Shown in pieces: positions 39,734-58,109 of a DNA stretch of 64,000 nt. The stretch's first letter is position 1. Each line of letters begins with the position of its first letter. Origin of the DNA: Anseongella ginsenosidimutans. Its GTDB lineage: Bacteria; Bacteroidota; Bacteroidia; Sphingobacteriales; Sphingobacteriaceae. The stretch lies in NCBI RefSeq assembly GCF_008033235.1, contig NZ_CP042432.1:434001-498000 (forward strand). The letters are read 5' to 3'. The notes beneath the pieces are model-generated. The model made no database searches. It was not told the DNA's origin and was given only the letters and a program-made list of their open reading frames with translations. The translations under genes were made by a program, and so were the position numbers.

Positions 39734-39759
39734 GCATGATGAAAAAAATTTGTTTCTTT

Positions 39760-39778
39760 GTGCAATCGATTACGGAAA
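39760..39778. promoter_or_regulatory. Operator-like site C upstream of galK
   Basis: GTGCAATCGATTACGGAAA repeats the core CAATCGATTACG of site A exactly and ends 3 bp before the galK ATG. This is a likely place for repression of galK by the adjacent LacI-family protein. Confidence 0.55.
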
Positions 39779-39781
39779 GGA

Positions 39782-40947: not shown

Positions 40948-41417
40948 ACCACCAACCATCTGAGATGGCTTCAGGAAACGGACATAGCGCCAGCGACCCG
41001 CACCAGGGCTGACTTGTACCGGGATTGGCCTTTACCGGGATAGCCTGTACCCGGGGATTGGGCCTGCTTTCCTTTCCTGCAATTGGCTTATCAGAGTATT
41101 CCTAAAAGCTCTACGAATTTTCTTGGCCTTGACGAATTTGCTCCCTACCTTTACCCTTACAATCATTTAACCGGCGTTACTATCGCTGATCTACATTTTC
41201 CGGCGATTAACGCTTAAACAAAACCTGTAAGAACATGTATCCATTGAAGAACACCGGGTTGTTTTGTCGTTTAACCGTCGGGATTATCCCCTGCCCCCGG
41301 GAAGAAAGAAAAAGCCTCCGGCAAGCCAGCATGCAGGGACCGGACCTGCGGGCGCCGGGAGAAAACAAGTATTATCCTTGCCTTGAAGAGCAATCTGCCT
41401 TGAACGATCTACAGGTA
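40948..41417. other. Intergenic region with degenerate repeats
   Basis: After galK there is a small hairpin (CCATC/GATGG, 40956-40968) without a T-run. Between about 41013 and 41083 three degenerate copies of a TACCGGGATTGGCCT-like unit occur in tandem. No other gene is visible, although the Rpn frame is open from an ATG at 41235. Confidence 0.45.
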
Positions 41418-42425
41418 ATGGAGCCGCCTGCCGACTATCAGCCTTCTTACCTGGATCTCCGATCCGACTTTGCCTTTAAGCATATTTTTGGCAGGGAAGC
41501 AAATAAACACCTGTTGCTCCATTTTCTAAACAGCCTTTTCGAGGGCCGGAAAATCATTAGTGATCTCCAACTCGGTCCTACAGAGCGGCAGGGAGAATTA
41601 AAGGAAACGAGGAAAGTGCTTTTCGATCTGCAATGTAAGGGTGATAAAGGTGAACAATTCCTGATAGAAATGCAGCGCGAGCGCCAGGACAATTTTTTAG
41701 CCCGTCTCATGCATTATTTGTTCCGTTTAGGGAGCGAGCAGGTCCCGGCCGGAAAAAATGGCGATAATTATCCTCTCCCGGAAATCAATGGAATCGCCAT
41801 TGTGGATTTTAATCCCTGGGAGGGCATCGATGTGCCTTCTGGAATACAGAACGAGTATGTTAATTCTTATGGATTCCGCCATATCAAAACCTGCGACCCC
41901 TATCCGGTTATGGTTGAACTAATGCTCGTTGAACTCCCTAAGTTCAAAAAAGGAATTGCTGACCTGCAGACCAATCTGGATAACTGGCTGTATGTCATAA
42001 AAAACCCGGGTCCTGTAAAGAACGCATCTCCCTTGTTGGATGAACCATGGTTCCGGAATCTATTACAAATCACAGAAATAAAAAAAATAAAAAAGGAGGA
42101 TAGAACAATGTTAATCGACTATGAACGCGACCAGAGAAACATTCGAAAGGTGTGGAAACGCGAAGCCAGGAAAGAAGGCCTGGCGGAAGGACGAATAGAA
42201 GGGCGGCAGGAAGGACTAAAGGAAGGACTAAAGGAAGGACTAAAGGAAGGGCTAAAGGAAGGGATAGCTAAAGGTGAACAAAGAATGAAAGAACTCAAGG
42301 ACCTTGCCTTTGTGCAAGCCCTGGTTAAAAAAAGCGGCTTCGGCGATCAGGAAATCGCCGACCTCGCAGGCGTAGAAGAAGACTTCGTTAGAAAGGTGCG
42401 GGCGGAATCAGCTATTGCAGTCTGA
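41418..42425 (+). CDS. Rpn-family PD-(D/E)XK nuclease/putative transposase
   Basis: About 335 residues. The family start YLDLRSDFAFKHIFG is followed by a PD-(D/E)XK core with VLFDLQCKGDKGEQFLIEMQ, where Asp and Glu-x-Gln would hold the metal. Rpn proteins are nucleases that promote recombination in E. coli. The C-terminal part has a run of EGLK repeats (about 42208-42266, a 12-bp unit) ending in a short helical tail. I choose the ATG at 41418 because upstream codons from 41235 look unlike the family; that upstream ATG is possible. A strong terminator follows. Confidence 0.85.
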   Translation: MEPPADYQPSYLDLRSDFAFKHIFGREANKHLLLHFLNSLFEGRKIISDLQLGPTERQGELKETRKVLFDLQCKGDKGEQFLIEMQRERQDNFLARLMHYLFRLGSEQVPAGKNGDNYPLPEINGIAIVDFNPWEGIDVPSGIQNEYVNSYGFRHIKTCDPYPVMVELMLVELPKFKKGIADLQTNLDNWLYVIKNPGPVKNASPLLDEPWFRNLLQITEIKKIKKEDRTMLIDYERDQRNIRKVWKREARKEGLAEGRIEGRQEGLKEGLKEGLKEGLKEGIAKGEQRMKELKDLAFVQALVKKSGFGDQEIADLAGVEEDFVRKVRAESAIAV

Positions 42426-42439
42426 GGTGTATGTTTGGC

Positions 42440-42467
42440 AAAGCCGGGGTCGCATGGCCCCGGCTTT
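42440..42467. terminator. Rho-independent terminator, probably bidirectional
   Basis: AAAGCCGGGG and CCCCGGCTTT form perfect 10-bp arms around TCGCATGG, followed by TTGC and a T-rich tract. It lies between the convergent Rpn gene and SusD gene and can serve both. Confidence 0.85.
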
Positions 42468-42494
42468 TGCTTCCTCTTTTTTCCTGAATTACCG

Positions 42495-44093
42495 TCAATA
42501 CCCTGGATTTTGGACCAGGTTGGGGTTTTTATTGAGTTCTGCTTCAGGAATGGGAAATATCGTTTTGTCCGCTGAGGAGGGACGATGCTGAAACCAGGTC
42601 TTGGTAGCGAATACTCCGAAACGGATCAGGTCCCGCCGGCGGCGACCTTCAGCGGCGAATTCCCAGCCCAGCTCATCGAGGAATCTTCCGTACTGTATGT
42701 CTTCTCCTCCCTCGGGTTCGGTGACACTTCCGTTTTCCCAATAACCGTATTGATAGGTACTGCCCTGTTCAAGCATTGCCCCGGTAACAAGGGCTTTCTC
42801 CGGAACAGTACCATTAAAGGCTCTTTCCCTTACCCGGGTGACTAATAGGGCCGCTTCTTCTGCGTGACCGGTTCTTAACAGGCATTCAGCTTTCATCATG
42901 AGAATGTCCGCATAGCGGAAAACAGGAAAGTCATTGCTCAGCCCTCCCCTGGTATCGGGCCGGATTTCGTATTTACCGATCCGGTATCCCTGATTACTTT
43001 CGCTGGATTCGATGCTGTTCACTGTTTTTACATAATTGATCAGCTCCTCGCCTGTGACGGCATCATACTGAGGGCCCATGATCCAGGTATCTTTTAAGCG
43101 GGTATCATCAGGGTCATAGGTATCAATAAACTGGGGAACGGCGCAGTTTCCGCCCCAGGGCTGTACCTGCATCGGATAGACTCTTTGCATAATGGGATCA
43201 AGTGTTTTCATGTGGATAATGTTTTGGGTGGCAAAAATATCGTCGTAAGGAATGGCAAAGATCAGCTCGGAAGAACCTTCATTATCAGTTTTAAAAATAT
43301 CGCTGTACCTGGCCTCAAGGGCATAAGCGCCCTGTTCTGCGGCGGCGATAACATCATTGCAGGCTTCTATGCATTTATCCCATTCCGCCGTGCCGGTATA
43401 AACTTCAGCGTTCAGATAAACTTTGGCCAGCAGGGCTTTGCCGGCCCACTTATTAAATCGCCCGTACATGGATAAGCCGGCCTCTTCCGGAAGCTGGGGA
43501 ATATTTTCCGTCAGCTCCTTGATAACAAAGTCATACACTTCCTTCCTGGTATTTTGCGTAGGCGGTTCCGTCGCAGCAAAATCGGTAACAATGGGTACAT
43601 TGCCGTGACTGTCACATAGGAGCCAATAGTAAAAGGCGCGCGTCGTCTTCAGCTCTGCAATGATGGCTTCCTTCCCGGAGGCGACGGGAATAGTTCCTGT
43701 TTCCAGCTGCATAAGCACCCTGTTGGCCGCATTGATCCCGCTGTAACAGCTATTCCAGAGATTCGTTGGCGGCCACTCCTGGATAGTCCACTTATGCCAG
43801 TGCATTCGCTGGTAAATACCTCCGTCATACCAGCCGTTAGGCCTCACAGGGGTAATGATATGGTCGGCGCTTTCTTCCTGAAGGTCAAAATAACCTTGCC
43901 AGCCGGCAAACATCCTCAGCGGGGTATAAACCGGGGCAATTAAAGAGATCAGGTCATCTTCGGTAGGGGTAAACTCGCTTTCAATGACTTCATCGAATAC
44001 TTCCACTTCCAGATCAGTACAGCTATTCAGGTTTATTAAGAGCAGAATCGACAGGATACCTGCTATTCCGGGTGTTATCGTTAAATATTTCAT
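42495..44093 (-). CDS. SusD/RagB family lipoprotein (hydroxyproline/peptide locus)
   Basis: The 532-residue lipoprotein has a lipobox LNSC (Cys25), then the SusD helical body with LLAKVYLNAEVYTGTAEW, FRYADILMMKAECLLRTGHA and the normal C-terminal IPEAELNKNPNLVQNPGY. It probably captures peptides or glycopeptides for the SusC encoded 19 bp upstream, given the peptidase and hydroxyproline genes in the same run. It is the last gene before the terminator at 42440-42467. Confidence 0.94.
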   Translation of the reverse strand: MKYLTITPGIAGILSILLLINLNSCTDLEVEVFDEVIESEFTPTEDDLISLIAPVYTPLRMFAGWQGYFDLQEESADHIITPVRPNGWYDGGIYQRMHWHKWTIQEWPPTNLWNSCYSGINAANRVLMQLETGTIPVASGKEAIIAELKTTRAFYYWLLCDSHGNVPIVTDFAATEPPTQNTRKEVYDFVIKELTENIPQLPEEAGLSMYGRFNKWAGKALLAKVYLNAEVYTGTAEWDKCIEACNDVIAAAEQGAYALEARYSDIFKTDNEGSSELIFAIPYDDIFATQNIIHMKTLDPIMQRVYPMQVQPWGGNCAVPQFIDTYDPDDTRLKDTWIMGPQYDAVTGEELINYVKTVNSIESSESNQGYRIGKYEIRPDTRGGLSNDFPVFRYADILMMKAECLLRTGHAEEAALLVTRVRERAFNGTVPEKALVTGAMLEQGSTYQYGYWENGSVTEPEGGEDIQYGRFLDELGWEFAAEGRRRRDLIRFGVFATKTWFQHRPSSADKTIFPIPEAELNKNPNLVQNPGY

Positions 44094-44112
44094 GACGTAT
44101 TGCTTTAGGATC

Positions 44113-47046
44113 TTACAATGTAAAATTCAGGCCCAGGGTAAACGTAGTGGTAGTGGGGTACTTATCGCGATGATCGCTCCCCGGAGCGGTCCCGTTGAAA
44201 TTCACTTCCGGGTCAATTCCCTTGTACCCGGTTAGGGTAACCAGGTTCAGGGCAGAGAGATAGAGGCGCAGGTTCCGCACTCCCTTAATGCTGCCTGCGG
44301 GGAGCGTATATCCCAGGGTGATATTGTCAATTTTCCAATAGTCGCCGTCTTCAATATAATAACTTACATAGGCGAGGTCATTATTTAGCACGGTTTTTCC
44401 GTAAACAGGATCAAAGGCCGATTTCAGCATATTATACTGGGTAATCTTCGGATTTTCATAATACATTCGCTGAAAATTGAGTATCTGAAAGCCGAACGCG
44501 CCCCTCATTCCAACTGTCAGGTCCAGATTTTTATAGCGGAGGTCATGATGCCATCCCAGAATATGTTTCGGAACGCCGTTGCCCAGGATCTTTTTATCTT
44601 CCTGAACGGCTTCGGAAATAGGTTTGGGGGCACCGTCAGCTCCTTCGATGATCCAGTGCCCTTCTTCGTCGATATCAACGGATTTATACCCGTAAAAACT
44701 ACCGATCTCCTCGCCAATCCATACCCTGTGGGTACTTTGCTGAATAGGTTCACCGGTATGGCCGGCGTCAAAGAAATCATTGGTAGTCTGAAATTGCTCA
44801 TTCGATAAGGATACGAGCTTGTTCGAATTAGTAGAATACGTGACCCCGGTACTCCAGTAAAAGGAGGGCTTCCGTATGGCCTCCACGTTCAGAAGCACTT
44901 CAATCCCCTCATTTTTCATTTCCCCGACGTTTGCGAAGATGCTGCTGAAGAGATAGGGGGGTACGGGAACCTGGTAGTTATAAAGCATGTCTTTAGTGGC
45001 ACGCCGGTAAAGGTCCAAAGATCCGCTCAGGCGGCGGCCGAAGAATGCGAAATCAAGGCCCAGGTTGTATTCTTCCTTTCTTTCCCAGCGAAGGTTCGGG
45101 TTAGGGTTGCGGTTGGGCGCCAGCGACTGGATCCAGGTGCCGTTATCAAAAAACCTGTCGCCGTAATTAAGGCTCACAAGCGATTCGTAATCCGCATCCG
45201 GCGCGGTTCCCGTCACGCCGAATCCCGCCCGGAATTTCAGATCGTCCACCACGCTCCAATTGCTCATGAAGGGCTCATTGCTGATCCGCCACCCCAGGGA
45301 AACCGCGGGGAAAGTACCCCAGCGGTAATTGACGCCGAACTTGGAAGAGCCTTCATGCCTGACACTTGCCATGAACAGGTATTTATCCTGCCAGTTATAG
45401 TTGAGCCGGCCGAAAAAACCTATGAGCTTGCTCATGCTGGCCGAACTGTTCATCGGCGCTTCTCCCCTTCCAAGGGCATTTCCGCTTTGCATGCGGTTGT
45501 AGGAATATTCGTCGGTAGGGAAATCCCAGTTCTGCATCCAGAAGCCTTCTGATTTTTCGTCCTGATAACTATATCCTCCCAGGAGGGAAAGGCGGTGTTT
45601 GCCCAGATCCCTGGAATAGCTGCTCGTAAATTCCAGCAAGTTATCTACGCGGGAGGAAGTACCCCGTGAAGCATAGCCGTTCCGCCCGTTCTTTACCGTG
45701 GAAACGTGCTGCTTTGTTTCAGAATAGCCTCTCACTTCCGTCCACTTATTCCCGGATACCAGCAGCTTCATGTCCAGGCCTTCGACCGGGTTAAGCATGA
45801 CGCTGCCGTTCAGCCGGTATTCCCTGCTGCTGTTAAGGCCTGTCGATTCATTCAAAAAGGCTACCGGGTTATCATAAAAGTAAATACTGCGTTCCATCCA
45901 GTCGCCCCGCCAGTTCCGGATGCTATCGGTAGGATTACGTATTACCGACTGGCGGTACACATAGTCGTTGAAGCTGGAACCGTCGCCGCCGGTCCAGTAT
46001 TCCTGCGTCCCCACAATGGCATTCAGGTTGAACTTTAGCTTGCCCTCAAACATGGAATGATTCAGGTCTGCCCTGCCCGTGATCCGCTGATCGTCAGAAT
46101 TGATGAATAACCCTTGCCATGAACGATAATTTATGGAGGCAGTATAATTTGTCTGGCTCCCTCCCCCTGAGAAGCTGAGATGGTGGGTGTGGCTTACAGG
46201 GGTCCGGCTGATTTCATCAAACCAATCGGTAGAAGCTCCGTAATCCGTAAAATCATATCCTTCTCCTATCAGCCTGCGATAATCCTCCGCTGTCAGGAAT
46301 TCCGGCCGGTTCGCAATTCGCTGGACGCTCAGGTATCCGTTGTAGCTGATCGTCGCCGGCCTGTCCCCGCCTGCCCGCCGGGTAGTGATCAGGATCACGC
46401 CGTTGGTTCCCCGGGTTCCGTAAATAGCGGCCGCCGAACCATCTTTCAATACATCAACCGCAGCAATATCCTCAGGAGCCACTGTGCTAAGGTCTCCCGG
46501 GATGCCGTCAATCAATACAAGGGGTGCGGTTGAAGAGGCTAAAGTGGTCATTCCCCGCATCCGGATTTGTGTGCCGGCGGTTGGGTCGCCGGAGGTGGTG
46601 GCCACGGATAAGCCGGCAACTTTTCCCTGGATAAGCTGGGCGGCATCCCTTACCGCACCCTTTACAAAGTCCTCTGCCTTTACGCTGGCAACAGCGCTGG
46701 TGACGTCTCCCGCGCGCTGCGTTCCGTAACCGATCACGACTACTTCTTCCAGCTGCTGCTGATCCGTTTCCAGACTCAGGTTGATCGTACTCCTTGCGCC
46801 GCGCGGGACTTCGCGGCTAACATACCCCAGGAGTTGAAACACGATCACCGCATTTTCCGGAGTGCTAAGTGTATAAATGCCTTCGGTATTTGTTTGAGTG
46901 CCGCCGCCGCTTTCTTTTATCAGAACGGAAACTCCCGGGAGAGGATTGCCTTCCTCATCCGTAACCTTTCCCGTCAGCGGGGATTCCTGCCCGTAAAGGA
47001 CCGCAGTAACTATCATACCGCAAGTGATCAAACAAATTGTTTTCAT
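44113..47046 (-). CDS. SusC/RagA TonB-dependent transporter without STN domain (hydroxyproline/peptide locus)
   Basis: The 977-residue outer-membrane importer has signal peptide MKTICLITCGMIVTAVLYGQ, a carboxypeptidase-like sandwich (PLTGKVTDEEGNPLPGVSV), a plug with VVVIGYGTQRAGDVTSAVAS and DVLKDGSAAAIYGTRGTNGV, and a barrel ending TTFTLGLNFTL. Lacking STN, it should not signal through FecR. It lies 257 bp downstream of the DUF885 gene, a gap large enough for its own promoter. Confidence 0.95.
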   Translation of the reverse strand: MKTICLITCGMIVTAVLYGQESPLTGKVTDEEGNPLPGVSVLIKESGGGTQTNTEGIYTLSTPENAVIVFQLLGYVSREVPRGARSTINLSLETDQQQLEEVVVIGYGTQRAGDVTSAVASVKAEDFVKGAVRDAAQLIQGKVAGLSVATTSGDPTAGTQIRMRGMTTLASSTAPLVLIDGIPGDLSTVAPEDIAAVDVLKDGSAAAIYGTRGTNGVILITTRRAGGDRPATISYNGYLSVQRIANRPEFLTAEDYRRLIGEGYDFTDYGASTDWFDEISRTPVSHTHHLSFSGGGSQTNYTASINYRSWQGLFINSDDQRITGRADLNHSMFEGKLKFNLNAIVGTQEYWTGGDGSSFNDYVYRQSVIRNPTDSIRNWRGDWMERSIYFYDNPVAFLNESTGLNSSREYRLNGSVMLNPVEGLDMKLLVSGNKWTEVRGYSETKQHVSTVKNGRNGYASRGTSSRVDNLLEFTSSYSRDLGKHRLSLLGGYSYQDEKSEGFWMQNWDFPTDEYSYNRMQSGNALGRGEAPMNSSASMSKLIGFFGRLNYNWQDKYLFMASVRHEGSSKFGVNYRWGTFPAVSLGWRISNEPFMSNWSVVDDLKFRAGFGVTGTAPDADYESLVSLNYGDRFFDNGTWIQSLAPNRNPNPNLRWERKEEYNLGLDFAFFGRRLSGSLDLYRRATKDMLYNYQVPVPPYLFSSIFANVGEMKNEGIEVLLNVEAIRKPSFYWSTGVTYSTNSNKLVSLSNEQFQTTNDFFDAGHTGEPIQQSTHRVWIGEEIGSFYGYKSVDIDEEGHWIIEGADGAPKPISEAVQEDKKILGNGVPKHILGWHHDLRYKNLDLTVGMRGAFGFQILNFQRMYYENPKITQYNMLKSAFDPVYGKTVLNNDLAYVSYYIEDGDYWKIDNITLGYTLPAGSIKGVRNLRLYLSALNLVTLTGYKGIDPEVNFNGTAPGSDHRDKYPTTTTFTLGLNFTL

Positions 47047-47056
47047 AACTCATTAG

Positions 47057-47215
47057 CTTTAGGTTCCAGTATTCTTTACCTAAAGGTACGCGCGAAAGGC
47101 AGGAATATCTATTTGTATTTTTGCTATTAATGACTTTATATTATCATAAATTAAAATCATCGGCCGAATAATAAGATATAATAATATTTTGAAGATAATT
47201 TTATTATACCTAAAG
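47057..47215. promoter_or_regulatory. Three copies of ACCTAAAG in the SusC upstream region
   Basis: The 8-mer ACCTAAAG occurs at 47078-47085 and 47208-47215, with its inverse CTTTAGGT at 47057-47064. The first two form an inverted pair spaced by 13 bp just upstream of the SusC start. They may be binding sites for a regulator, for example the AraC-type protein at 54817. Confidence 0.4.
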
Positions 47216-47231
47216 ATCAAAAGAATTCCAC

Positions 47232-47248
47232 GCCGGAGGATATCCGGC
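47232..47248 (-). terminator. Weak hairpin after the DUF885 gene
   Basis: GCCGGA and TCCGGC form 6-bp arms around a 5-nt loop, followed on the minus strand by a short T-rich stretch. It may attenuate transcription between the DUF885 gene and SusC. Confidence 0.35.
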
Positions 47249-47303
47249 TTTCAGGCAGAAGGTAAGATTGGAAAGAAACAGCGAAGGCTTGCCTGACCTG
47301 CTG

Positions 47304-49036
47304 TTATTTATTATAAAATCTCCAGTTGGTTTTGAAATCGCGGGCGGGTGCCTGATCGGTTAAAATAAACCTTAGCATTTCAACCGGGATGTTATTTTCC
47401 TGCAGCACCGCGTCATGATACTCCCGGAAGGTCATCTTTCCGCTCTCCACCAGTTCTTCTTTTAACGAATAAAATTGCAGGCCTCCGATCATATAGGCGA
47501 GCTGGTACAAAGGGCTGTAGCCGCCGGTGAACGAACGCCTTACTTCCCCTTCGGCATTCGCATATTCATGTCCGACACGCTCCACCAGGAAATCGATGCA
47601 TTGCTGGGGGCTCCATTTGCCCAGATGATAATTAAGGGAGAAAATGATACGGGCACAGCGGTGCATCCTCCAGAAGAGCATACCAATGCGGTCTTCGGGC
47701 GACTCCGGGAAACCCTGGTCCCACAGGAGCATTTCCCAGTATAATGACCAGCCTTCCGTCCAGAACGGGGTATCAAAATCACGGTACACCTTGTACCGCC
47801 GGTTCATAAATTGCTGCAGATGATGACCGGCGATCAGCTCGTGATGAACCGTGGCTCTTGAAAAATGTGGGTTATTTCCGCGCATACTCATGAGCTTGGC
47901 GGACTGCTCCATGGTATTTGCCGGGTAGGAAATGCTGATGACTTCCCCGCCTGTAAAAAAAGGATTGACCAATTGCCGTTCAGGGCTCATCATGATCATC
48001 CTCCATGATTCTTCGGCAATGGGGGAATGCTGACCAGGTCCTTTTCTTTGAGGAACGAGACGGATGCGTTGTAAAGCTGCAAGATCAGCTCCGGCTGCCT
48101 GCCGGGGGCCACGTAGGTGTTCTTCACCTTTTCAAGGGCTTTTTTCCAATCCTGCCCAAAGCCCATCTCCGCCGAGGCTTTCAGCATTTCACGGTCGCAC
48201 CAGGCAAATTCCTTGTTCGCAATTTCAACCAGCTCTTCCGGAGAATAGGGGATCATTTCATATTCGAGTTGCCGGATAATCTCTTCCCGGCCAATGGGAT
48301 TTCCGCGGATTCCGCTGCCATCCTCCTTTTGAGAGCTGATCACTTTGCTTTTACTTTTGAACAGCTTGTCGTATCCGGCCAGGAGCGTATCCAGTTCCTT
48401 GTAAGGCGCAGGCGCCCACCAGGTGAAAGCAGGATCATACCCGTTATAAAAATCATACACGCTTTTGAGGGCTTCCCGCAATCCTTCAATGGTTTCCGTG
48501 GCAAAAGCAGCTACCCGGCTGTCAATAGCATCTGCTTTGCCGAGAGAAGCGCTTGCCGCCCTGACATCTTTCGCCAGGCCGGAAAGCAAGGCTCCCGTTT
48601 CCTGACCCTCCAGGGAAGCTCCTCTCCGACGCTGCTTTTCCAGGTCATAAACCGCGGCTGCAAATCCAAACCATTGCTTTGTTTCGCGGAATTTTTCCTC
48701 CTCCAGCCCGAGTATGTGCAATTGTTCTTCCAGGTCCCGCCGGAACAGGACGAAATCTACTTTTCCGTTAATGCTAAAACGTCCGAACTGCTCTTTTTCC
48801 AATTTTTCCAGGTAATCTCCTGCAAGCTGCCTCAGGCGCTCCCGCCGCTCCGGAGAATGCTTGATGAAATAAAAACGGCTCAGGCTCCTGTAGTCAGCCT
48901 CGTACTGCTGCATGAGGTGATGCATTTCGCTTGTCTGCAAATAGTGCCCCGCCGAAAGCGTTTGCGCCTGCAGCGCAGGATAAAAAGCCCATGAGAGCAA
49001 AATAAAGGCTGTTAGCCGGAAGTAGTAGAAACTCAT
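47304..49036 (-). CDS. Secreted DUF885-family (putative metallopeptidase) protein, interrupted by an apparent frameshift
   Basis: A signal peptide starts at 49036 (MSFYYFRLTAFILLSWAFYP). The DUF885 body includes FAWCDREMLKASAEMGFGQDW and, after the break, ERQLVNPFFTGGEVISISYP, VHHELIAGHHLQQF and FWTEGWSLYWEMLLWDQGF; the His/Glu motifs resemble a zinc site. The frame breaks at a G5 run (48021-48025): adding one C on the coding strand joins VSIPP to IAEESWRMIMMSPER, giving about 577 residues, the usual family length. As read, the two halves would be 346 and 231 residues. It lies after the S9 peptidase gene in the probable peptide-degradation operon. Confidence 0.85.
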
Positions 49037-49082
49037 AAGTCGTTCATTTATTTCTTGATTTTTCCACAATTGCTTCTGATGC

Positions 49083-51347
49083 TCACGGCAGGGCTTGCTT
49101 CCCGAGAAGGTGTTCAATAAAGTAATTCCACCTTTTACGCGTAAAGTATTCGCCGTAATGGCCGGTATATCCGTGCCCGCTGCCAGGAATTATAAGCATG
49201 TCAAAATTCTTTCCGGCCCTGATGAGGGCTTCGGCAAGCTTAAAGGTTGCCGAGGGATTTACATTTTCGTCTATTCCGCCATGTACCAGTAAAAGCTTTC
49301 CCTGCATTTTATCGGCCATGGTAATATTGGACTGAAGATGATACGCGGAATCAACCGGCCAACCCATATACATTTCCGGCCACCAGGCTTTTTCCATGCG
49401 ATGGTCATGATCTCCTGAGGATGCCACGGCGACCTTATAAAATCCAGAAAAAAGCATCAGGGCATGTGCGGCATCATAGCCGCCGGCTGAATGCCCAAAA
49501 ATGCCTATACGCGTGGTATCAAGCCAGGAATACTTCGCCGCCAGCTGCCGGATAGCCACTACATGGTCGGTAAGGCCATAACCCAGGCGTTTATAGGACC
49601 AGTCATGAAAGGCTTTTGACCGCCCCGCTGATCCCAGGCCGTCAACAGCCATCACCGCGAACCCGAATTCAGCCAGGGGCTGCGCGGCACTGAAAACGGC
49701 GCTGCGAAAGCTTTCCGGAAATACATTTGCCTGGGGCCCGGTATAGCTGTTATCTATCAAGGGGTACCGGTCGCTTTCGCTAAAACCGGAAGGTTTCCAG
49801 ATCGCTCCGTAAATATCGGTAAGCCCGTCGCGGGCCTTGACCTTGAAAATTTCAGGAAAATCCCAGCCGGCGGCTAAGAGTTCCGAAATATCTGCCTTGC
49901 CGAGTTCCTTGATCATCTTGCCATCCGGGAGGCTGCGCAGCACCGAGATCGTGGGCTGCCGGGCCGTGGAGTAATTATCTACGAAATACTGGTTGCCGGG
50001 TGAAAGATGGACTTCATGATGGGCATTTTCCGGTGTCAGCAGCTGCAGCCCTGAGCCGTCAAAGCCAATGCGGTAGAGGTGGTTGAAATAAGGGTTGCGC
50101 CCCTCTTCTTTTCCGCTGGCAGTAAAATACAGCAGCTCTTTTTCTTCATCAATCGCCACAAACTTTTTGACAACAAAATCTCCCCTGGTGAGGGCCGTGA
50201 CGGAACCGCTTGCCCAGTCAAGCCGGTAAACCTGGTTCCAGCCGCTTCGCTCGGAAGTGATAAAAGCAATACCCTTGTCTTCCAGCAGCCTGAACTCCGT
50301 CGTATTCTCCACATTGGTGCGGCTGCTATCGCTGAATTTGACGTCCACCTTACCGGTCCGGGGGTCCACGCAGATCAGGTCCATCCGCTGGTAACCACGG
50401 TGCCGGTAAAGGCCGTAAAGAAAAGAGCCGTCTTTGTTCCAGCGCAGCGGATTACCGATAAAATGCGGGAGCGGAGGAAGATCAACCTTGATCATTTTCC
50501 GGGTATTGATATCGAATATGACCGGTATATAACAGACAATGTTGGTATCGCCTGGTCCCCCGCGGTAATAGGAAAGCAGCTTTGGGCGATACAGGCTGTC
50601 AATGGACCAGTCCAGCAGGTACATTTTCCTCCCTTTTCGTAAGTCTGCTATTTGGGTAAGTATCCTGGAGCCGTCCGCGGACCATACCGCGGTAAAATTT
50701 TCAGGCCTCTCCCCGTTCTCACCTTCCATGATATCGCTCCAGCCCAGGTAGCTGGCATACGCATAATCTGGCTTGCCGTCGGTGCTAAGAGCGATCTCCT
50801 GTGCCTGGCTGCGGACATACAGATTATGATCCCTGCTGAAGGCGACCCATTTCCCGTCCGGAGACCTTACCTCCCTTACCGATACTTCTTCCGCGGGCAA
50901 GACGCCGGTCTTATTTACTGTATAGTCCTTCAGGTTGGCCTGGTACGTTACCCGGTCGGTAATAAAGGAGATAGCACGGTCATTTTCCCACTCAATCTGG
51001 CCAAAGGGCAGATTTTTCCGTTCAATTGGTTTTCCCAAAGCGTCCGATAAGGCCCTGGCAAGCCGCTCATGGTCGAATGCTTCCTTAATTGTTCCGGAGG
51101 GTATATGGACCTTGTAGAAGGTCTTCCCCCGGGGAGTATTAGTAGCGTATGTGAATTCGGGAACATCTTTCAGCCAATTCGGATTCACTTCCAGGTGATA
51201 GATCTTCCGGCTGATATTATTCGCCAAAAAGCTTTCAGCCCGGCGGTAATCTTCCGGCGATATTCCGCTGCCTGGCGCCGGGGACTGACCGGAACATATG
51301 CCCCCGGTAAAGAATAGCAATAAAAACAGGTATATTCGTTTCATCAT
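49083..51347 (-). CDS. Secreted prolyl-oligopeptidase/DPP-IV-type serine peptidase (S9)
   Basis: About 754 residues from the ATG at 51347 (MMKRIYLFLLLFFTGGICSG, signal peptide). The N-terminal two-thirds is the DPP-IV-type propeller (for example SPDGKWVAFSRDHNLYV and VWSADGSRILTQ). The C-terminal alpha/beta hydrolase has the nucleophile in GIFGHSAGGYDAA, the Asp in HGGIDENVNPSAT and the His in PGSGHGYTGHYG. DPP-IV-type enzymes release dipeptides with proline (or alanine/hydroxyproline) in second position. That fits the hydroxyproline-catabolic genes just upstream. The upstream in-frame TTG at 51365 is not needed. Confidence 0.93.
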   Translation of the reverse strand: MMKRIYLFLLLFFTGGICSGQSPAPGSGISPEDYRRAESFLANNISRKIYHLEVNPNWLKDVPEFTYATNTPRGKTFYKVHIPSGTIKEAFDHERLARALSDALGKPIERKNLPFGQIEWENDRAISFITDRVTYQANLKDYTVNKTGVLPAEEVSVREVRSPDGKWVAFSRDHNLYVRSQAQEIALSTDGKPDYAYASYLGWSDIMEGENGERPENFTAVWSADGSRILTQIADLRKGRKMYLLDWSIDSLYRPKLLSYYRGGPGDTNIVCYIPVIFDINTRKMIKVDLPPLPHFIGNPLRWNKDGSFLYGLYRHRGYQRMDLICVDPRTGKVDVKFSDSSRTNVENTTEFRLLEDKGIAFITSERSGWNQVYRLDWASGSVTALTRGDFVVKKFVAIDEEKELLYFTASGKEEGRNPYFNHLYRIGFDGSGLQLLTPENAHHEVHLSPGNQYFVDNYSTARQPTISVLRSLPDGKMIKELGKADISELLAAGWDFPEIFKVKARDGLTDIYGAIWKPSGFSESDRYPLIDNSYTGPQANVFPESFRSAVFSAAQPLAEFGFAVMAVDGLGSAGRSKAFHDWSYKRLGYGLTDHVVAIRQLAAKYSWLDTTRIGIFGHSAGGYDAAHALMLFSGFYKVAVASSGDHDHRMEKAWWPEMYMGWPVDSAYHLQSNITMADKMQGKLLLVHGGIDENVNPSATFKLAEALIRAGKNFDMLIIPGSGHGYTGHYGEYFTRKRWNYFIEHLLGKQALP

Positions 51348-51354
51348 TTTAATA

Positions 51355-52590
51355 TCAGGTGTCAAACCTGTCGGGCCGGAATGCTTCCAGCCCCAGGGAA
51401 GGAGCCTTTCCCTCCGCTATTTCCGCCACGAGCCTGCCGGTGGCCGGAGCCGCTCCCAGCCCCAGCATGGAATGACCTGTGGCGATGATCAAATTGCCAT
51501 AACGCCGCGTTTTCCCGATATAAGGTAAACCATCCGCCGAAACGGGCCGCAGCCCGGCCCATATATTTTCCCTGGCAGGGACCTCCGCATGCAGGGCGGG
51601 GAAGTACGTGTTCACCGCGTCCGTAATGCCTTTTACTCTTTTCATATTTATCCCGCCGGCGGCTGACCCTATTTCCATGGTGCCGCCGAAACGGAGGCTC
51701 CTGTTCATTGGCGTAAGGGCGACCCTGGCTTCGCAAAGAATGGCCGGGTGCCGCAGCTGAGCCCCCGGCATTTCCAGCGTTACCGAATATCCTTTGCCCG
51801 CTACCAGGGGCATGCGAATCCCCAGGCTGGCGGCAAGCGCTGCAGACCAGGAGCCGCCAGAGAGAATGAACAGGTCGCCGGTAATTAATTGCCCGCCGGC
51901 CCGGACGCCGGCAATGCTTCCGTTCTTTTTCTCAAAGGTCCCGGCGGTGTTGCGGATCCACCTTACTTCATCTTTAAGCTGCTGCAGTAACTGTTTCATC
52001 AGCTCTGCAGGATGAAGGTGGGCGTCGCACTTATAATGCACCCCGCCAAGGGCTTGCACGTCCATTGCCGGTTCCATCATTCTCAATTGAGACAGGTCGT
52101 ACACCTGGGTTTCCAGGCCAAGTTCTTTTGCTTTTACAGCCAGTTTAATCTCTTCCCTGGCTGCTTCTTCCGATCTGTAGTACATGATAATCCCTTTTTT
52201 CTGAAGCGAAAATGATAATTCCGGTTCCAGCTCTTCATAAAGGGAGCGGCCCATCAGCAAAAGATCTCGCAGCGGCGCCGCCGACCTTTCGGCATGACTT
52301 TCCGATGCATTCCGGATAAAATGACGGCTCCAGCTGATCATATTCCGGTTAAGGCGGGGACGGATATGAAAAGGGCTGCTTGTACTGAACAGCCATTTAA
52401 AAGCCTGGCTAAGCACGCCCGGCGCCGCCAGCGGCACAAAATGGCTGGGTGTGATCATGCCGGCATTACCGTAGGAGCAGCCGTTAAGCAGATCGCCTTT
52501 GTCCACCAGCGTTACTTCCCAGCCGGCTTTGCGAAGGTACCAGGCTGAAAAAAGCCCTATTATTCCGCCTCCTATAATTACTGCCTGCAT
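51355..52590 (-). CDS. FAD-dependent D-amino-acid dehydrogenase-like protein (probable D-hydroxyproline dehydrogenase)
   Basis: The 411-residue flavoprotein starts with the dinucleotide motif IIGGGIIGLFSAWYLRKAGW and has the DAO-fold C-terminal segment WAGLRPVSADGLPYIGKTRR with NLIIATGHSMLGLGAAPATG. It resembles DadA. Its position between an S9 peptidase gene and a 4-hydroxyproline epimerase gene points to oxidation of cis-4-hydroxy-D-proline to pyrroline-4-hydroxy-2-carboxylate. The family also includes other D-amino-acid and glycine/sarcosine-type oxidases, so the substrate is inferred from context. Confidence 0.85.
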   Translation of the reverse strand: MQAVIIGGGIIGLFSAWYLRKAGWEVTLVDKGDLLNGCSYGNAGMITPSHFVPLAAPGVLSQAFKWLFSTSSPFHIRPRLNRNMISWSRHFIRNASESHAERSAAPLRDLLLMGRSLYEELEPELSFSLQKKGIIMYYRSEEAAREEIKLAVKAKELGLETQVYDLSQLRMMEPAMDVQALGGVHYKCDAHLHPAELMKQLLQQLKDEVRWIRNTAGTFEKKNGSIAGVRAGGQLITGDLFILSGGSWSAALAASLGIRMPLVAGKGYSVTLEMPGAQLRHPAILCEARVALTPMNRSLRFGGTMEIGSAAGGINMKRVKGITDAVNTYFPALHAEVPARENIWAGLRPVSADGLPYIGKTRRYGNLIIATGHSMLGLGAAPATGRLVAEIAEGKAPSLGLEAFRPDRFDT

Positions 52591-52605
52591 CCTGTATTGC
52601 GTGAT

Positions 52606-53607
52606 CTATATTACCTGGAATCCGCCGGCATAGGGGTCATCTTCATCTACCAGGATAGTATTGAACCCTGTGACCATAGCCCATCCTTCAATGGAAGGTA
52701 TAATGGCCGCCTTTCCGCCTACGGACGTTTCCTCCTCGATGGTCCCGGTAAACCTGGAACCAATGAAACTCTCGTGGATAAAGGAATCGCCTTTTTTTAA
52801 CTTCCCCTGGGAATACCATTGCGCCATGCGGGCGGAAGTGCCTGTACCGCAAGGTGAACGGTCTATGGCTTTATCCCCGTAAAAAACGGCATTACGTACA
52901 GGCGCCGATACAGAAGAGGATTCCCCTCCCCAGAGCAAATGGCTTACTCCGCGGATATTACCGTTTTCGGGATGAATGAACTCTTGCTCTTCATTGATGC
53001 GCCGCCGGCACTCGCGACTCCAGGAGATAAGCTGCTCCGCCTTCACATGCTCAATGCCCGGGAAGTTTTCCTGCCGGTCAATGATGGCGTAAAAATTCCC
53101 TCCGTAGGCCACGTCCGCCGTTAATTTTCCCAGGCCGGGGCAGTCTATTATTATATTTTCAGCGGCAAGATAAGAGGGCACATTAGTGATCCTTACCGAA
53201 GTCACCTTTTTCCCCTCCTGCTTATACGTTGCAATAACTAACCCGGCCGGTGTTTCCAGGCGAAGCATGCCTGGAACTTTAGCTTGAATAAGCCCATGTT
53301 CAATGGCAATGGTTACCGTACCGATCGTGCCGTGCCCGCACATAGGAAGGCAGCCGCTCGTTTCAATGAACAATATCCCCATATCATTTTCCCGGTTCTG
53401 CGGCGGATAAAGTATGCTGCCTGACATCATATCATGGCCGCGGGGCTCGAACATCAGGGCTTTGCGGATCCAATCGTATTCCTTTAAAAAATGTAGCCGC
53501 TTTTCCATCATATCGTTTCCTTCAAGTACCGGGGCTCCTCCCGTCACCAGCCTCACCGGGTTTCCGCAGGTATGCGCGTCAATACAGAAAAAAGTCTTTG
53601 CTGACAT
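52606..53607 (-). CDS. 4-hydroxyproline 2-epimerase (proline racemase family)
   Basis: The 333-residue enzyme interconverts trans-4-hydroxy-L-proline and cis-4-hydroxy-D-proline without cofactor, using two catalytic cysteines. Both are visible: C90 in LPMCGHGTIG and C253 in DRSPCGTGTSAR. The Cys/Cys pair fits racemases/epimerases rather than the trans-3-hydroxyproline dehydratases, which have Cys/Thr. The N-terminal FFCIDAHTCGNPVRLV is typical of the hydroxyproline epimerases. It follows the DapA-like gene by 10 bp and precedes the flavoprotein by 15 bp. Confidence 0.92.
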   Translation of the reverse strand: MSAKTFFCIDAHTCGNPVRLVTGGAPVLEGNDMMEKRLHFLKEYDWIRKALMFEPRGHDMMSGSILYPPQNRENDMGILFIETSGCLPMCGHGTIGTVTIAIEHGLIQAKVPGMLRLETPAGLVIATYKQEGKKVTSVRITNVPSYLAAENIIIDCPGLGKLTADVAYGGNFYAIIDRQENFPGIEHVKAEQLISWSRECRRRINEEQEFIHPENGNIRGVSHLLWGGESSSVSAPVRNAVFYGDKAIDRSPCGTGTSARMAQWYSQGKLKKGDSFIHESFIGSRFTGTIEEETSVGGKAAIIPSIEGWAMVTGFNTILVDEDDPYAGGFQVI

Positions 53608-53617
53608 GAATGTGCGC

Positions 53618-54562
53618 TTATGCTTCTTTGGACAACGGGTTCCCGTTTAAAGGCACATCGGACGGCAGTACAGGCCGGATCTCATTCGCCTGATGAACAA
53701 TTCCCAGGATACGTTCCCTTTCTTCGCCTTCGAGCGGAAGGCGCGGCGGGCGTACCGCTTCGCTGCCGATGCCTGCGACGGCTCCGGCCAGCTTGATATA
53801 TTGCACCAGCTTCGGATGAATATCCAGCTCCAGCAAGGGCATGAACCAGCGGTTCAGCTTTCGCGCTTCTTCCAGCCTGCCGGCCTTTGCCAGTTCGTAA
53901 AGCACGACCGTCTCACGGGGATACGCATCCACCAGCCCGGCCACCCAGCCGTCTGCCCCCAGAAGGAGGCTTTCCATCGCAAGGGTATCCACTCCGCAGA
54001 AAAGGCGGAAACGATCTCCGAAGCGGTTAATCATGCGGGTTATGTTGGTCAGGTCGCGCGTAGATTCCTTCACCGCCTTTATATTTGACAGCCTGGCCAA
54101 TTCCCCGAACATATCCAGGGTTACCAGGATCTTATAGTCAACCGGGTTATTGTAGATCATTAAGGGCAATGGGGTGCTTTGGGCAACCTCCCTGAAAAAG
54201 GCGAGGGTTTCCCGGCTATCGGCATAGTAACGCATGGGAGGCAGCAGCATTAAGCCGTCGGCGCCCCCCTTCTCCGCTTTCCGTGCCGCCTCAATGGCCG
54301 CGCGCGTCGTTTGTTCGGCGATATTCATGATCACCGGGACTTTCCCGTTTACCAGCTCCATCACAAAGCGCAGCAATTCCTCTTTTTCTTCCTGGAGCAA
54401 ACTTGATGCTTCACCAAGGCTTCCCCCGAGTACCAGACCATGTACACCTGCGTCCAGCTGGGCCCGGATGTTCAGGGCAAGCATCTCAAAATCCAGTTCA
54501 TCATTCTCTGTAAACTGGGTTGTTAATGCGGGAAAGACTCCCTTCCATTCAAATTCCATCAT
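53618..54562 (-). CDS. DapA-family lyase (probable pyrroline-4-hydroxy-2-carboxylate deaminase)
   Basis: The 314-residue TIM barrel belongs to the dihydrodipicolinate synthase/N-acetylneuraminate lyase superfamily. The Schiff-base Lys is in IKAVKESTRD, the Tyr in LMIYNNPVDY, and the glycine-rich loop is GLVLGGSLGEASSL. In hydroxyproline degradation, a family member converts pyrroline-4-hydroxy-2-carboxylate to 2-oxoglutarate semialdehyde; the gene neighbours make that the best guess. It is first in the operon, 17 nt downstream of a candidate promoter. The 2-oxoglutarate semialdehyde dehydrogenase that would finish the pathway is not in this window. Confidence 0.88.
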   Translation of the reverse strand: MMEFEWKGVFPALTTQFTENDELDFEMLALNIRAQLDAGVHGLVLGGSLGEASSLLQEEKEELLRFVMELVNGKVPVIMNIAEQTTRAAIEAARKAEKGGADGLMLLPPMRYYADSRETLAFFREVAQSTPLPLMIYNNPVDYKILVTLDMFGELARLSNIKAVKESTRDLTNITRMINRFGDRFRLFCGVDTLAMESLLLGADGWVAGLVDAYPRETVVLYELAKAGRLEEARKLNRWFMPLLELDIHPKLVQYIKLAGAVAGIGSEAVRPPRLPLEGEERERILGIVHQANEIRPVLPSDVPLNGNPLSKEA

Positions 54563-54699: not shown

Positions 54700-54816
54700 A
54701 ATGAGGGCTAGTATTCTGTTAAACCTGAAATTGCAGTACCACAAGCCTGGGTCTTTTTGCCCCAGGCCGCTTTGGGCGCAGCCGACGTCTGCAAGATAAT
54801 AAGCGGTATCAGCGAA

Positions 54817-55695
54817 ATGAAAGCTTTAGTATTTAAAATACCGGTAATTGAAGACTGTTCTGTGTACACACAGGAAGATGATCTGCCCTATTTCTACGAT
54901 CACCTGCACCTCCATCCGGAAATCCAGCTAACCCTTATCCTAAAAGGGACAGGTACGGTGTTTGCCGGTAATTTCATAGGTAATTTCGCCCCGGGAGATA
55001 TTTACTGGATCGCCTCTGATCAGCCACACTTATTTAAATGCGACCCGGCTTATTTTGCGCCGAAAAGCTTGCTGAAAGCACATTCCCTTTCTATTTATTT
55101 TCTGAAAACCGGCATCCTTGGTCAGCTCTTCAGGCTTCCGGAGCTTGGAAAGGCCAGCGACTTCATCTGGAAAAGCAAAGGCGTTTACCGCCTGCGGTGC
55201 GCGCCGGGCGCGGGTGTGGAAAGGGCATTCAGGGAGGTACAAGCATCCAATGGCAGTGAACGCATCATCCAGTTTCTCCGGCTGCTGCAGGAATTCATTT
55301 CAAATACGACGAAAGAAACCTTATCCGGGGAGGCATCCCAAACGCTGAACGAGCAGGAATGCCTCCGGATGAACGAGATTTACCAGTTTACCATGAAACA
55401 TTTCCATGAGCATATAAGTCTTGAAAAAGCAGCCGCCATTGCCCATATGACCCCTCCGGCCTTTTGCAGGTATTTCAAACACAGCACCCGGAAAACCTAT
55501 ATGCACTTTCTGAACGAAGTGCGGATAGACCATGCACGCAAAATGATACGCAGCAATAAAGATATTCCCTTGTCGGGAGTAGCGGCGGCCTGCGGCTTTG
55601 AAAATGCATCCGGCTTCACCCGCGTCTTCCGGCGGATCACCGGAATAGCGCCCATGAGTTACCGCAAAGAACTTTTAAAAGGAGCAGCCGGGTAA
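54817..55695 (+). CDS. AraC-family transcriptional regulator with cupin sensor (hydroxyproline locus)
   Basis: About 292 residues from MKALVFKIPVIEDCS; the in-frame start at 54757 adds an Ala-rich stretch unlike the family. The N-terminal cupin domain has HLHLHPEIQLTLILKGTGTV and a GDIYWIASDQPH loop. The C-terminal AraC HTH pair has AAAIAHMTPPAFCRYFKHST and VAAACGFENASGFTRVFRRI. Divergent from the hydroxyproline operon, it is its likely regulator, and it is closely similar to the AraC gene at 58110. Confidence 0.92.
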   Translation: MKALVFKIPVIEDCSVYTQEDDLPYFYDHLHLHPEIQLTLILKGTGTVFAGNFIGNFAPGDIYWIASDQPHLFKCDPAYFAPKSLLKAHSLSIYFLKTGILGQLFRLPELGKASDFIWKSKGVYRLRCAPGAGVERAFREVQASNGSERIIQFLRLLQEFISNTTKETLSGEASQTLNEQECLRMNEIYQFTMKHFHEHISLEKAAAIAHMTPPAFCRYFKHSTRKTYMHFLNEVRIDHARKMIRSNKDIPLSGVAAACGFENASGFTRVFRRITGIAPMSYRKELLKGAAG

Positions 55696-55897: not shown

Positions 55898-57034
55898 CTA
55901 ATCCTTTAAAAAAGTGAAATCCGGCAGCTGCACGATTTCCCCGCCTTTCATGGCCGATTCATGTGCCAGAATTCCTACGCAGGTGATATTTGCAGACTGG
56001 CGGGCGTTCGGGAAAGGCTGGCGGTTTTCAACAAGCGAGCTAACGAATTCATGAACGAGGTGAGGGTGGGAACCTCCGTGACCGGCGCCCTGGGTAAAAG
56101 AAAGGTGCTGGTGTTCATCTTCGTCATATACGCCTTTCGTCGTGAACCGCTGGATGGCTTCGGGGAGCAGATGCGCGTAATCAGGGCATTCCATTTCTTC
56201 GGGAATTTCCGGCTCGGGGCGCTTGGCGGTATGGACCACCAGGGGGCGGCCCTCGATTAAGGGCCATTCAACAGCCTTCTTCGAGCCGTATACTTCAAAA
56301 CTTTCGCGGTACTGACGCGCGGTATCAAAAAGGGAGCGGTATACATGCGCGCTGAGGTCGGAATTCCTGAACTTGATATGGGCGGTTTCCACGGCGAAGG
56401 GAGAGTTATAGTGTGCATGCAGCTCTTGACGGATGGTACCTGAACCGAAACAGGAAACGTATTCCGCTTCTCCGCGGGTGATACCCAAAACGGGCCCTAC
56501 GCAGTGGGTGGCATAATGCATTGGAGGAAGCCCCGGCCAGTAATTGGGCCACCCGTCCATGTCCTGCTGGTGGCTGGCCTTGATAAACTGCAGCTTACCC
56601 AGTTCTCCCTTATCGTAAAGTTCTTTCATGAACAGGAACTCCCGTGCATAAACGACGGTTTCCATCATCATATAGGTGAGGCCAGTTTCCTGTACTGCCT
56701 CCACTATCCTGCGGCAATCTTCCACGGAAGTGGCCATTGGCACCGTGCAGGCCACGTGCTTGCCCGCACGCAGAGCTTTGAGCGCCTGGCCGGCATGATC
56801 CGGAATGGGTGTATTTATATGAACGGCGTCAACCGCCGGGTCATTCAGCAGCTCATCGTAATCGGTATACCTTTTTTCTATGCCAAAGGCATCTCCTACC
56901 TGGTTCAGTTTCTCCGCGTTCCGCTGGCAAATAGCATACATATTCGCGTTCGGGTGACGCTGGTAAATAGGAATGAACTCCGCTCCGAAGCCCAGGCCGA
57001 TAATTGCGATATTAACTTTTTTATCTTCCATCAT
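55898..57034 (-). CDS. Gfo/Idh/MocA-family oxidoreductase (copy B), EKP lysine absent
   Basis: The 378-residue cytoplasmic protein is closely related to copy A at 15043-16158. The Rossmann motif is IIGLGFGAEFIPIYQRHPN, the usual CEKP is replaced by CTVPMATSVEDC, and the FTQGAGHGGSHPHLVHEFV segment is shared. It is the second gene of the pair, 15 bp after the epimerase, the reverse of the order in copy A. Reaction and substrate are unknown; sugar or keto-sugar redox chemistry is inferred from the partner. Confidence 0.85.
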   Translation of the reverse strand: MMEDKKVNIAIIGLGFGAEFIPIYQRHPNANMYAICQRNAEKLNQVGDAFGIEKRYTDYDELLNDPAVDAVHINTPIPDHAGQALKALRAGKHVACTVPMATSVEDCRRIVEAVQETGLTYMMMETVVYAREFLFMKELYDKGELGKLQFIKASHQQDMDGWPNYWPGLPPMHYATHCVGPVLGITRGEAEYVSCFGSGTIRQELHAHYNSPFAVETAHIKFRNSDLSAHVYRSLFDTARQYRESFEVYGSKKAVEWPLIEGRPLVVHTAKRPEPEIPEEMECPDYAHLLPEAIQRFTTKGVYDEDEHQHLSFTQGAGHGGSHPHLVHEFVSSLVENRQPFPNARQSANITCVGILAHESAMKGGEIVQLPDFTFLKD

Positions 57035-57049
57035 TATTGATTTTATTCT

Positions 57050-57937: not shown

Positions 57938-58085
57938 AAATATTTCCGGTTCAAATGCACCTAAGATAAGCGAAACAGCCAATATGTCTCTTATCCGATT
58001 TTACCAAATAATGACTGTATTTTGTTGAAAAAAGATATTAAACAGCCCGAAAGGAGTAAAAAGACAGTAATACATTCAATTTTAG

Positions 58086-58093
58086 TATATTTG
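58086..58093 (+). promoter_or_regulatory. Candidate -7 box for the AraC gene at 58110
   Basis: TATATTTG (TAnnTTTG) followed by AAT lies 16 nt upstream of the ATG, in the 172-bp divergent gap with the epimerase gene. It resembles the box at 54692-54699. Confidence 0.45.
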
Positions 58094-58109
58094 AATAAGT
58101 GTGGTTGTT

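Follow-up and report, generated by a model that had tools for sequence, protein, structure and literature searches.

The 64,000-nucleotide stretch of Anseongella ginsenosidimutans DNA analysed here (the window) contains a gene cluster that probably serves to scavenge peptides or glycopeptides with hydroxyproline in them, which are most likely imported by its SusC/SusD pair. ORF and family profile searches showed that the cluster (42495-54562, minus strand) runs from a lyase through a 4-hydroxyproline epimerase, a flavoprotein, an S9 peptidase and a DUF885 protein to SusC and SusD. A preliminary description of this DNA had reported seven minus-strand genes with a divergent AraC gene, and gaps of 7-50 bp with 257 bp before SusC. 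ORFs and family matches confirmed the genes, and from the ATG starts judged likely the gaps measure 10, 15, 7, 46, 257 and 19 bp from the lyase to SusD. All families that had been named were found, but the DUF885 gene consists of two ORFs by frameshift, which had been overlooked, and the operon is less complete than was implied, as the cluster contains no aldehyde dehydrogenase and no permease and its DUF885 gene is broken. A tRNA scan of the window found none. The families, the gene order, their recurrence and co-occurrence in relatives and the SusD phylogeny are established here, and the grouping of hydroxyproline genes, peptidases and SusC/D is not due to chance.

The enzymes for hydroxyproline catabolism belong to an already known system. 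The epimerase (52606..53607, minus strand) scored 577.8 bits against NF010578 (cut-off 376) and is adjoined by DAAO-type and DHDPS-type partner genes. These are an FAD oxidoreductase (51355..52590, minus strand; PF01266, 211.5 bits), the putative cis-4-hydroxy-D-proline dehydrogenase/oxidase, and a DHDPS/NAL-superfamily lyase (53618..54562, minus strand; PF00701, 199.8 bits), the putative Pyr4H2C deaminase of the hydroxyproline pathway. The residues Cys90 and Cys253, which had been pointed out before, proved invariant in all 99 rows of an epimerase alignment in which one genome (G065) is present twice. The same Cys-Cys epimerase with DAAO- and DHDPS-superfamily partners is described for the trans-4-hydroxy-L-proline catabolic cluster of 4HypE, cHyp oxidase, Pyr4H2C deaminase and KGSA dehydrogenase (eLife 2014, PMC4113996). 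In contrast to that cluster, as described there, the one in the window has no dehydrogenase and adds SusC/D and two peptidases; the word 'TonB' is absent from the main text available for that paper.

Epimerase loci of relatives were compared in fetched stretches of up to ~20 kb around the epimerase, using bit thresholds of our own choice. The epimerase has a wide distribution (a plasmid search matched it in 556 of 72,556 records) and is carried by 52 of the 151 genomes analysed from the window's family. The 51 family loci represent one locus per epimerase-positive family genome, excluding the window's own and a second paralogue in G029 (L091, 34% identical), and two of the stretches (L075, L082) are short owing to contig ends. 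Outside the family, 40 phylum loci were obtained of 69 matches, 9 of which were dropped as near-duplicates of a genus; the epimerase ORF was not recovered in two of the 40 (L223, L226). A lyase-(dehydrogenase)-epimerase-flavoprotein core is conserved among the relatives' loci, with a lyase homologue near the epimerase in 51/51 family, 37/40 phylum and 8/8 named loci and a flavoprotein homologue in 51/51, 38/40 and 7/8, respectively. The AraC-family regulator, which is divergent from the cluster in the window (54757..55695, plus strand, likely ATG 54817; PF12833 and PF02311) and is the candidate regulator of the operon, has homologues near the epimerase in 44/51, 26/40 and 4/8 of these loci. 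A KGSA (aldehyde) dehydrogenase is present in related clusters and was not found in the window's cluster; an unlinked dehydrogenase gene of the same genome is 42-48% identical to the related-cluster dehydrogenases shown. This unlinked gene adjoins a galactarate-dehydratase-like gene. An amino-acid permease is likewise present in related clusters and absent from the window's, and no close permease match was found (best 30% identity).

The S9 (prolyl oligopeptidase/DPP-IV-like) serine peptidase (49083..51365, minus strand, likely ATG 51347; PF00326 and PF00930) has the catalytic triad in the aligned motifs GHSAGG, GGIDENV and GSGHGY. In dipeptidyl peptidase IV a Glu pair binds the peptide N-terminus. 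The Glu motif of BtDPP4 (DWVYEEEF) is not conserved in the window's protein (DYAYASYL), in a region where the alignment is weak. Among related clusters, most S9 peptidases of this set share 32-37% identity with the window's enzyme and two share 56% and 43%; the N-terminus of the window's enzyme, read by eye, indicates that it is apparently exported. The DUF885 gene (47304..49117, minus strand, likely ATG 49036) matches PF05960 on both halves, which lie in different frames (ORFs 47996-49117 and 47304-47999). All 22 DUF885 relatives, which had been selected as single ORFs of >500 aa and include one genome twice, match the window's gene in two frames, and all 55 other matches of its C-terminal half in the 151 family genomes are in open frames of 566-641 aa. 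The motif HELIAGHHLQ, a HExxxGH-type metal motif, is present in the frameshift-split gene, whose product, a member of the Peptidase_MA clan, is apparently an exported, putative zinc metallopeptidase. The split may be a real mutation or an assembly error.

The SusC-type TonB-dependent outer-membrane transporter (44113..47046, minus strand) exceeds the cut-offs of both TIGR04056 (725.2 bits, cut-off 368) and TIGR04057 (54.5 bits), and the SusD-type surface lipoprotein (42495..44093, minus strand; PF07980, 101.9 bits) adjoins it across the 19-bp gap. Cys25 of SusD, at a lipobox read by eye, is present in all four aligned SusD proteins. A SusD structure prediction from four rows was set aside as too poor (mean pLDDT 46). 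Behind SusD, the 'strong terminator' reported earlier was upheld only in part. A strong hairpin (42438..42470; -21.2 kcal/mol, z -2.1, an energy reached by 7 of 200 shuffles) separates SusD from a convergent PD-(D/E)XK gene and may be a shared terminator, but it has only a short T-tail on the operon strand and was not listed by a terminator scan. The Bacteroidota promoter element TAnnTTTG was not found on the operon strand in the 257-bp gap region, and neither a -7 element scan nor sigma-70-like matches around this region were above chance.

The DUF885 subfamily was found in 41 of the 151 family genomes, 39 of them epimerase-positive (Fisher 2e-22), and in 45 genomes of the phylum sample, 30 with and 15 without the epimerase (Fisher 1e-13); DUF885 co-location counts include the window's own genome, and the Fisher values treat related species as independent. 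Both the epimerase and the DUF885 subfamily are absent from G007, the second genome of the window's genus. S9 and/or DUF885 homologues lie near the epimerase in 18/51 family, 7/40 phylum and 2/8 named loci, compared to 0/20 control SusD loci, a non-random set of the closest SusD homologues with no epimerase in their stretch, three of which are <20 kb. SusC (at least 900 bits) was found near the epimerase in only 1/51 family, 3/40 phylum and 3/8 named loci, counts in which the SusC of G095 and G126 is truncated at the stretch boundary. In these two genomes SusC/D come after DUF885, permease and S9 genes with one unidentified gene between, and in Chitinophaga (L032) and two Salegentibacter (L034, L035) SusC/D are directly downstream of the flavoprotein gene. 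The recurrence of the grouping in some relatives suggests a dedicated use of hydroxyproline-rich proteins, perhaps those of plant cell walls.

SusC/D could instead be a separate nutrient locus that lies downstream of the hydroxyproline operon by chance, which we consider unlikely. The 257-bp gap before SusC would fit such a locus, most epimerase loci are without SusC/D inside the fetched stretch, and the window's genome probably holds many SusD proteins (73 first-look candidates, 9 scored). However, the direct adjacency in Chitinophaga and Salegentibacter argues against it, and so does the SusD tree. The window's SusD falls into an 11-row group (support 90/75), and all 11 rows are within 40 kb of an epimerase or a DUF5695 gene. 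In the neighbouring groups (12 and 5 rows) 1/17 lies within that distance, most of these rows being on other contigs or in epimerase-free genomes, where the distance is unmeasurable; outside the group, row L133 (G031) is 15.7 kb from DUF5695 and 32.8 kb from the epimerase. The 18 rows labelled as linked require 5 changes on the tree and do not form one clade (shuffled mean 14.1; 0/500 as low). This label was assigned manually, by inspection of the neighbourhoods and ahead of tree building; as it was given to whole loci, four further SusD rows at those loci carry it as well. It includes L127, whose nearest DUF5695 is 19.9 kb away and outside its stretch, and leaves out L137, with DUF5695 within its stretch, and likewise L133.

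With regard to the cargo, a glycopeptide or glycan of hydroxyproline-rich glycoproteins is the alternative to a plain peptide, because in 5/8 family genomes the gene of the closest SusD orthologue has DUF5695 at a shorter distance than the epimerase (5-39 kb to DUF5695 in all eight, 8-138 kb to the epimerase). DUF5695, a family of unknown function, is present in 34 of the 151 family genomes, 33 of these with the epimerase; it had no match among solved structures up to E 1, and profile comparison found no relation to GH127 or an M1-like family. It is conceivable, if rather doubtful, that SusC/D import the glycan part (e.g. beta-L-arabinofuranosyl oligosaccharides) or intact hydroxyproline-arabinosides and that the peptide is handled separately, which overlaps with the glycopeptide form of our preferred reading. 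GH127 acts on hydroxyproline-linked arabinosides according to PMC4454575 and PMC6085000, and 17/51 family loci have GH127-type genes close to the epimerase, where ~1 would be expected from the copy numbers found under uniform spread in a 5.1 Mb genome. Such genes also occur in 7/20 control SusD loci and 91/151 genomes pass the cut-off, and GH127 was therefore rejected as a hydroxyproline-specific marker. Against import of the glycan stand the eight ORFs of the cluster, which include no carbohydrate-active enzyme or glycosidase as a polysaccharide utilisation locus would, the window's genome, with no DUF5695 match and only two GH127-family matches (best E 6.6e-26), and Salegentibacter, where an S9 peptidase comes after SusC/D.

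Collagen is rich in hydroxyproline, and Gly-Pro-Hyp peptides of collagen or gelatin from animal matter had been hinted at as the cargo; we regard this as improbable. A collagen-utilisation cluster of Colwellia BB5 likewise joins the same hydroxyproline enzymes and peptidases to a TonB-dependent receptor, but it is gammaproteobacterial, contains an M9 collagenase and PPIases, and the text available does not present its receptor as part of a SusC/SusD pair (PMC7883544). For the M9 family, which the search for collagenases covered, the window's genome had no match at E 0.001, and 4 of the 151 family genomes barely reached the cut-off at ~26 bits. The weak M9 matches, which score no more than ~26 bits and mostly lie in open frames of ~1050 aa, were rejected as collagenases. 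Plant hydroxyproline-rich glycoproteins are favoured over collagen because the relatives' neighbouring genes encode plant-glycan enzymes (beta-arabinofuranosidases), DUF5695 and prolyl peptidases, and no convincing M9 collagenase was found.

The proposal of an uptake system for hydroxyproline-containing peptides is supported in its tie to hydroxyproline use, through the recurrence and the SusD tree, and a plain peptide is one candidate cargo. In the scavenging system that we propose, SusC/SusD would move oligopeptides, possibly still glycosylated, over the outer membrane, and the S9 and DUF885 peptidases, if exported and specific as predicted, would trim them. Free trans-4-hydroxy-L-proline would enter the cytoplasm via a transporter encoded outside the cluster and be converted by the epimerase to cis-4-hydroxy-D-proline, which the flavoprotein would oxidise to Pyr4H2C. 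The DapA-like lyase would deaminate Pyr4H2C to alpha-ketoglutarate semialdehyde, the unlinked aldehyde dehydrogenase might carry out the last step, and control of the system probably lies with the AraC protein.

The putative import of peptides resembles that by RagAB of Porphyromonas gingivalis, a SusC/D-type pair for which the text available describes no tie to hydroxyproline enzymes (PMC11817032); the window's proteins are likened to it by sequence family. HypBA/HypAA of Bifidobacterium and Xanthomonas act on Hyp-linked arabinosides (PMC6085000, PMC7263609), and GH127 genes also recur near the hydroxyproline loci of the window's relatives. As described there, the Xanthomonas cluster adjoins a (broken) prolyl oligopeptidase gene and Bifidobacterium imports via an ABC transporter, whereas the window's cluster has no glycosidase. 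In the literature searched we found neither a coupling of the hydroxyproline pathway to SusC/D and DUF885 nor an outer-membrane importer for products of hydroxyproline-rich glycoproteins.

More tentatively, with somewhat less than even confidence, we suggest that many Bacteroidota have a dedicated system for plant (extensin-like) hydroxyproline-rich glycoproteins. In such a system one SusC/D lineage would import the glycopeptide, the DUF885 subfamily would be a Pro/Hyp-peptide metallopeptidase, DUF5695 would be an unrecognised deglycosylase and the hydroxyproline pathway would burn the backbone; the window would then hold a reduced, peptide-only version. Hydroxyproline-rich glycoproteins are a sizeable, little-studied nutrient pool. 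The association makes DUF885 and DUF5695, both families of unknown function, testable with defined substrates, and it adds a case of a SusC/D pair that may serve a protein-derived nutrient.

ORF and family searches placed the seven genes of the minus-strand hydroxyproline cluster (42495-54562) where, and in the order in which, the preliminary description had read them, and the intergenic gaps matched its values. The epimerase scored 577.8 bits against the curated 4-hydroxyproline epimerase model (cut-off 376) and stayed under the cut-offs of the models for proline racemase (323.9 versus 556 bits) and trans-3-hydroxyproline dehydratase (276.9 versus 540 bits). The two-cysteine pair already recognised by eye was invariant in 99/99 aligned rows. 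Together, lyase, flavoprotein and epimerase form the set described for trans-4-hydroxy-L-proline catabolism in the available passages of PMC4113996. The fourth enzyme of this pathway, alpha-ketoglutarate semialdehyde dehydrogenase, is absent from the window's cluster, a point that the preliminary description had missed. The dehydrogenase of related clusters has its best match in this genome outside the cluster, at 1.79 Mb. Identity of this match to the cluster dehydrogenases compared is 42-48%, within the range of the latter among themselves (median 50.5%, lowest 1% at 41.9%), and the gene adjoins a galactarate-dehydratase-like gene (294 bits; the model cut-off of 731 is not reached). According to one earlier paper, such dehydrogenases are reportedly known from a galactarate-dehydratase-type setting. 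A permease family present within the stretch at 13/51 family epimerase loci has no close match in the window's genome (best 30% identity).

Of 151 genomes sampled from the Sphingobacteriaceae, 52 carry the epimerase, as do 77/395 sampled Bacteroidota genomes; the window's genus is represented by one further genome, in which the epimerase was not found. Epimerase-containing stretches (up to about 20 kb) were compared for 51 genomes of the family, 40 of the phylum and 8 named contigs. The lyase was present in 51/51, 37/40 and 8/8 of these, respectively, the flavoprotein in 51/51, 38/40 and 7/8, and the dehydrogenase in 48/51, 32/40 and 8/8. Homologues of S9 and/or DUF885 occurred in 18/51, 7/40 and 2/8, and in none of 20 control stretches around related SusD genes without epimerase. 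SusC of at least 900 bits was found in 1/51, 3/40 and 3/8; two family genomes beyond that count (G095 and G126) have a SusC cut by the stretch edge, and their second stretches hold DUF885, permease, S9, one unidentified gene and then SusC/D. In one Chitinophaga and two Salegentibacter loci, SusC/D directly follows the flavoprotein gene. Because of these counts and adjacencies, SusC/D is a recurrent yet minority partner of epimerase loci.

SusD proteins at least 58% identical to that of the window were found in 9/151 family genomes (the window's own counted), all of them epimerase-positive. In the SusD tree, the window's protein clusters with eight proteins from the family and two from Salegentibacter (moderate support, 90/75), and for each of these 11 rows the epimerase or DUF5695 is no more than 40 kb away. 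Four more rows (one Chitinophaga, two of family f4 and locus L137) form a second group, also near one of these genes. Within the same 40 kb limit, 1/17 rows of the two neighbouring groups (12 and 5 rows) had such a gene (L133 of genome G031, at 15.7 kb for DUF5695 and 32.8 kb for the epimerase); the others mostly belong to epimerase-free genomes or lie on a different contig. On the whole tree, the label set by hand for such neighbourhoods needed five changes, in part owing to additional, unrelated SusD copies at labelled loci.

Further SusD-like sequences were observed in the window. The end of an ORF at 62065-62643 (plus strand) is the C-terminal part of a SusD (PF07980), and its start, which has no Pfam match, resembles an ECF sigma factor when read by eye; this ORF is perhaps the relic of a deleted SusC/D locus. 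A SusD-family ORF at 33624-34784 (minus strand) does not extend to the profile ends and is perhaps a degraded locus. A pair of Gfo/Idh oxidoreductase and xylose-isomerase-like genes occurs twice, at 14187-16158 (read by eye) and, with a divergent AraC gene and adjoining the hydroxyproline cluster, at 55898-58979. The pair was also seen near two SusD relatives (L124, L127), and the xylose-isomerase-like gene alone near a third (L149). Convergent with the SusD end is a PD-(D/E)XK (Rpn-type) transposase-like gene (41235-42425, plus strand), with a hairpin between the two.

A frameshift near 48.0 kb, previously unnoticed, divides the DUF885 gene in two. All 22 long relatives matched it in two frames, and the other family-sample matches to its C-terminal half all lie inside open frames of 566-641 aa (55/55). 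Since galK (39758-40947, plus strand), about 8 kb away, seems to be broken in the same way, as two ORFs that overlap in different reading frames, assembly error may account for both breaks.

When the C-terminal half of DUF885 was used as query (E 1e-30), the subfamily was found in 41/151 family genomes, 39 of which carry the epimerase. The two genes are at most 10 kb apart in 17/39 (window's genome counted), at most 50 kb apart in 27/39 and on different contigs in 7/39. In the phylum sample, 30/45 carriers have the epimerase (24/39 outside the family); with 15 carriers lacking the epimerase, the subfamily also occurs beyond hydroxyproline users. DUF5695 (PF18951) was found in 34/151 family genomes, 33 of them epimerase-positive and 26/33 with both genes within 50 kb; the sole exception, G054, has stops inside its match. 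The p-values for co-occurrence overstate the association, as the tests treat species as independent. The window's genome gave no DUF5695 match. This family without known function, met at loci L153-L182 and others, might be a glycosidase; no solved relatives were found.

Among the open-access matches listed, no title or abstract start presented the arrangement of hydroxyproline genes with SusC/D; for hydroxyproline with TonB-dependent receptors, DUF885, and peptidases with collagen, these were the top 12-15 of more. Passages of two papers listed for hydroxyproline with SusC and SusD do not link the two subjects. The closest precedent, going by passages of PMC7883544, is a Colwellia collagen cluster that has a TonB-dependent receptor. 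The association of these known enzymes is real and recurrent, and their combination was not seen among the matches listed.

The window's S9 peptidase shares 56% and 43% identity with its counterparts at the phylum loci L194 and L227, and 32-37% with the remaining S9 of that set. Its catalytic triad is present, but since the alignment shows no Glu motif of the dipeptidyl peptidase IV type, we refrain from naming it a dipeptidyl peptidase. DUF885 carries an HExxxGH-type motif; its solved relatives are named only as lipoprotein or uncharacterised, and passages of PMC12572635 put it in the Peptidase_MA clan. Judged by eye from their N-termini, both peptidases appear to be exported, which would argue for a peptide cargo. 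Neighbours in relatives include M24 Xaa-Pro aminopeptidases, DPP-IV-like S9 with the Glu motif, DUF5695 and GH127 beta-L-arabinofuranosidases, whose substrate is, in the passages seen of PMC4454575 and PMC6085000, hydroxyproline-linked arabinose in extensins. GH127 lies near the epimerase at 17/51 family loci versus about 1 expected. It is not specific to them, since epimerase-free stretches around related SusD genes often have it too (7/20; L132-L151), and the wider SusC/D lineage may serve arabinofuranosyl glycans. A search of the window's genome for M9 collagenase gave no match. Taken together, peptidases, neighbours, GH127 and the M9 result favour plant hydroxyproline-rich glycoproteins over collagen for the group, with the window's own cluster having equipment for just the peptide portion. 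The SusC/D cargo is an inference.
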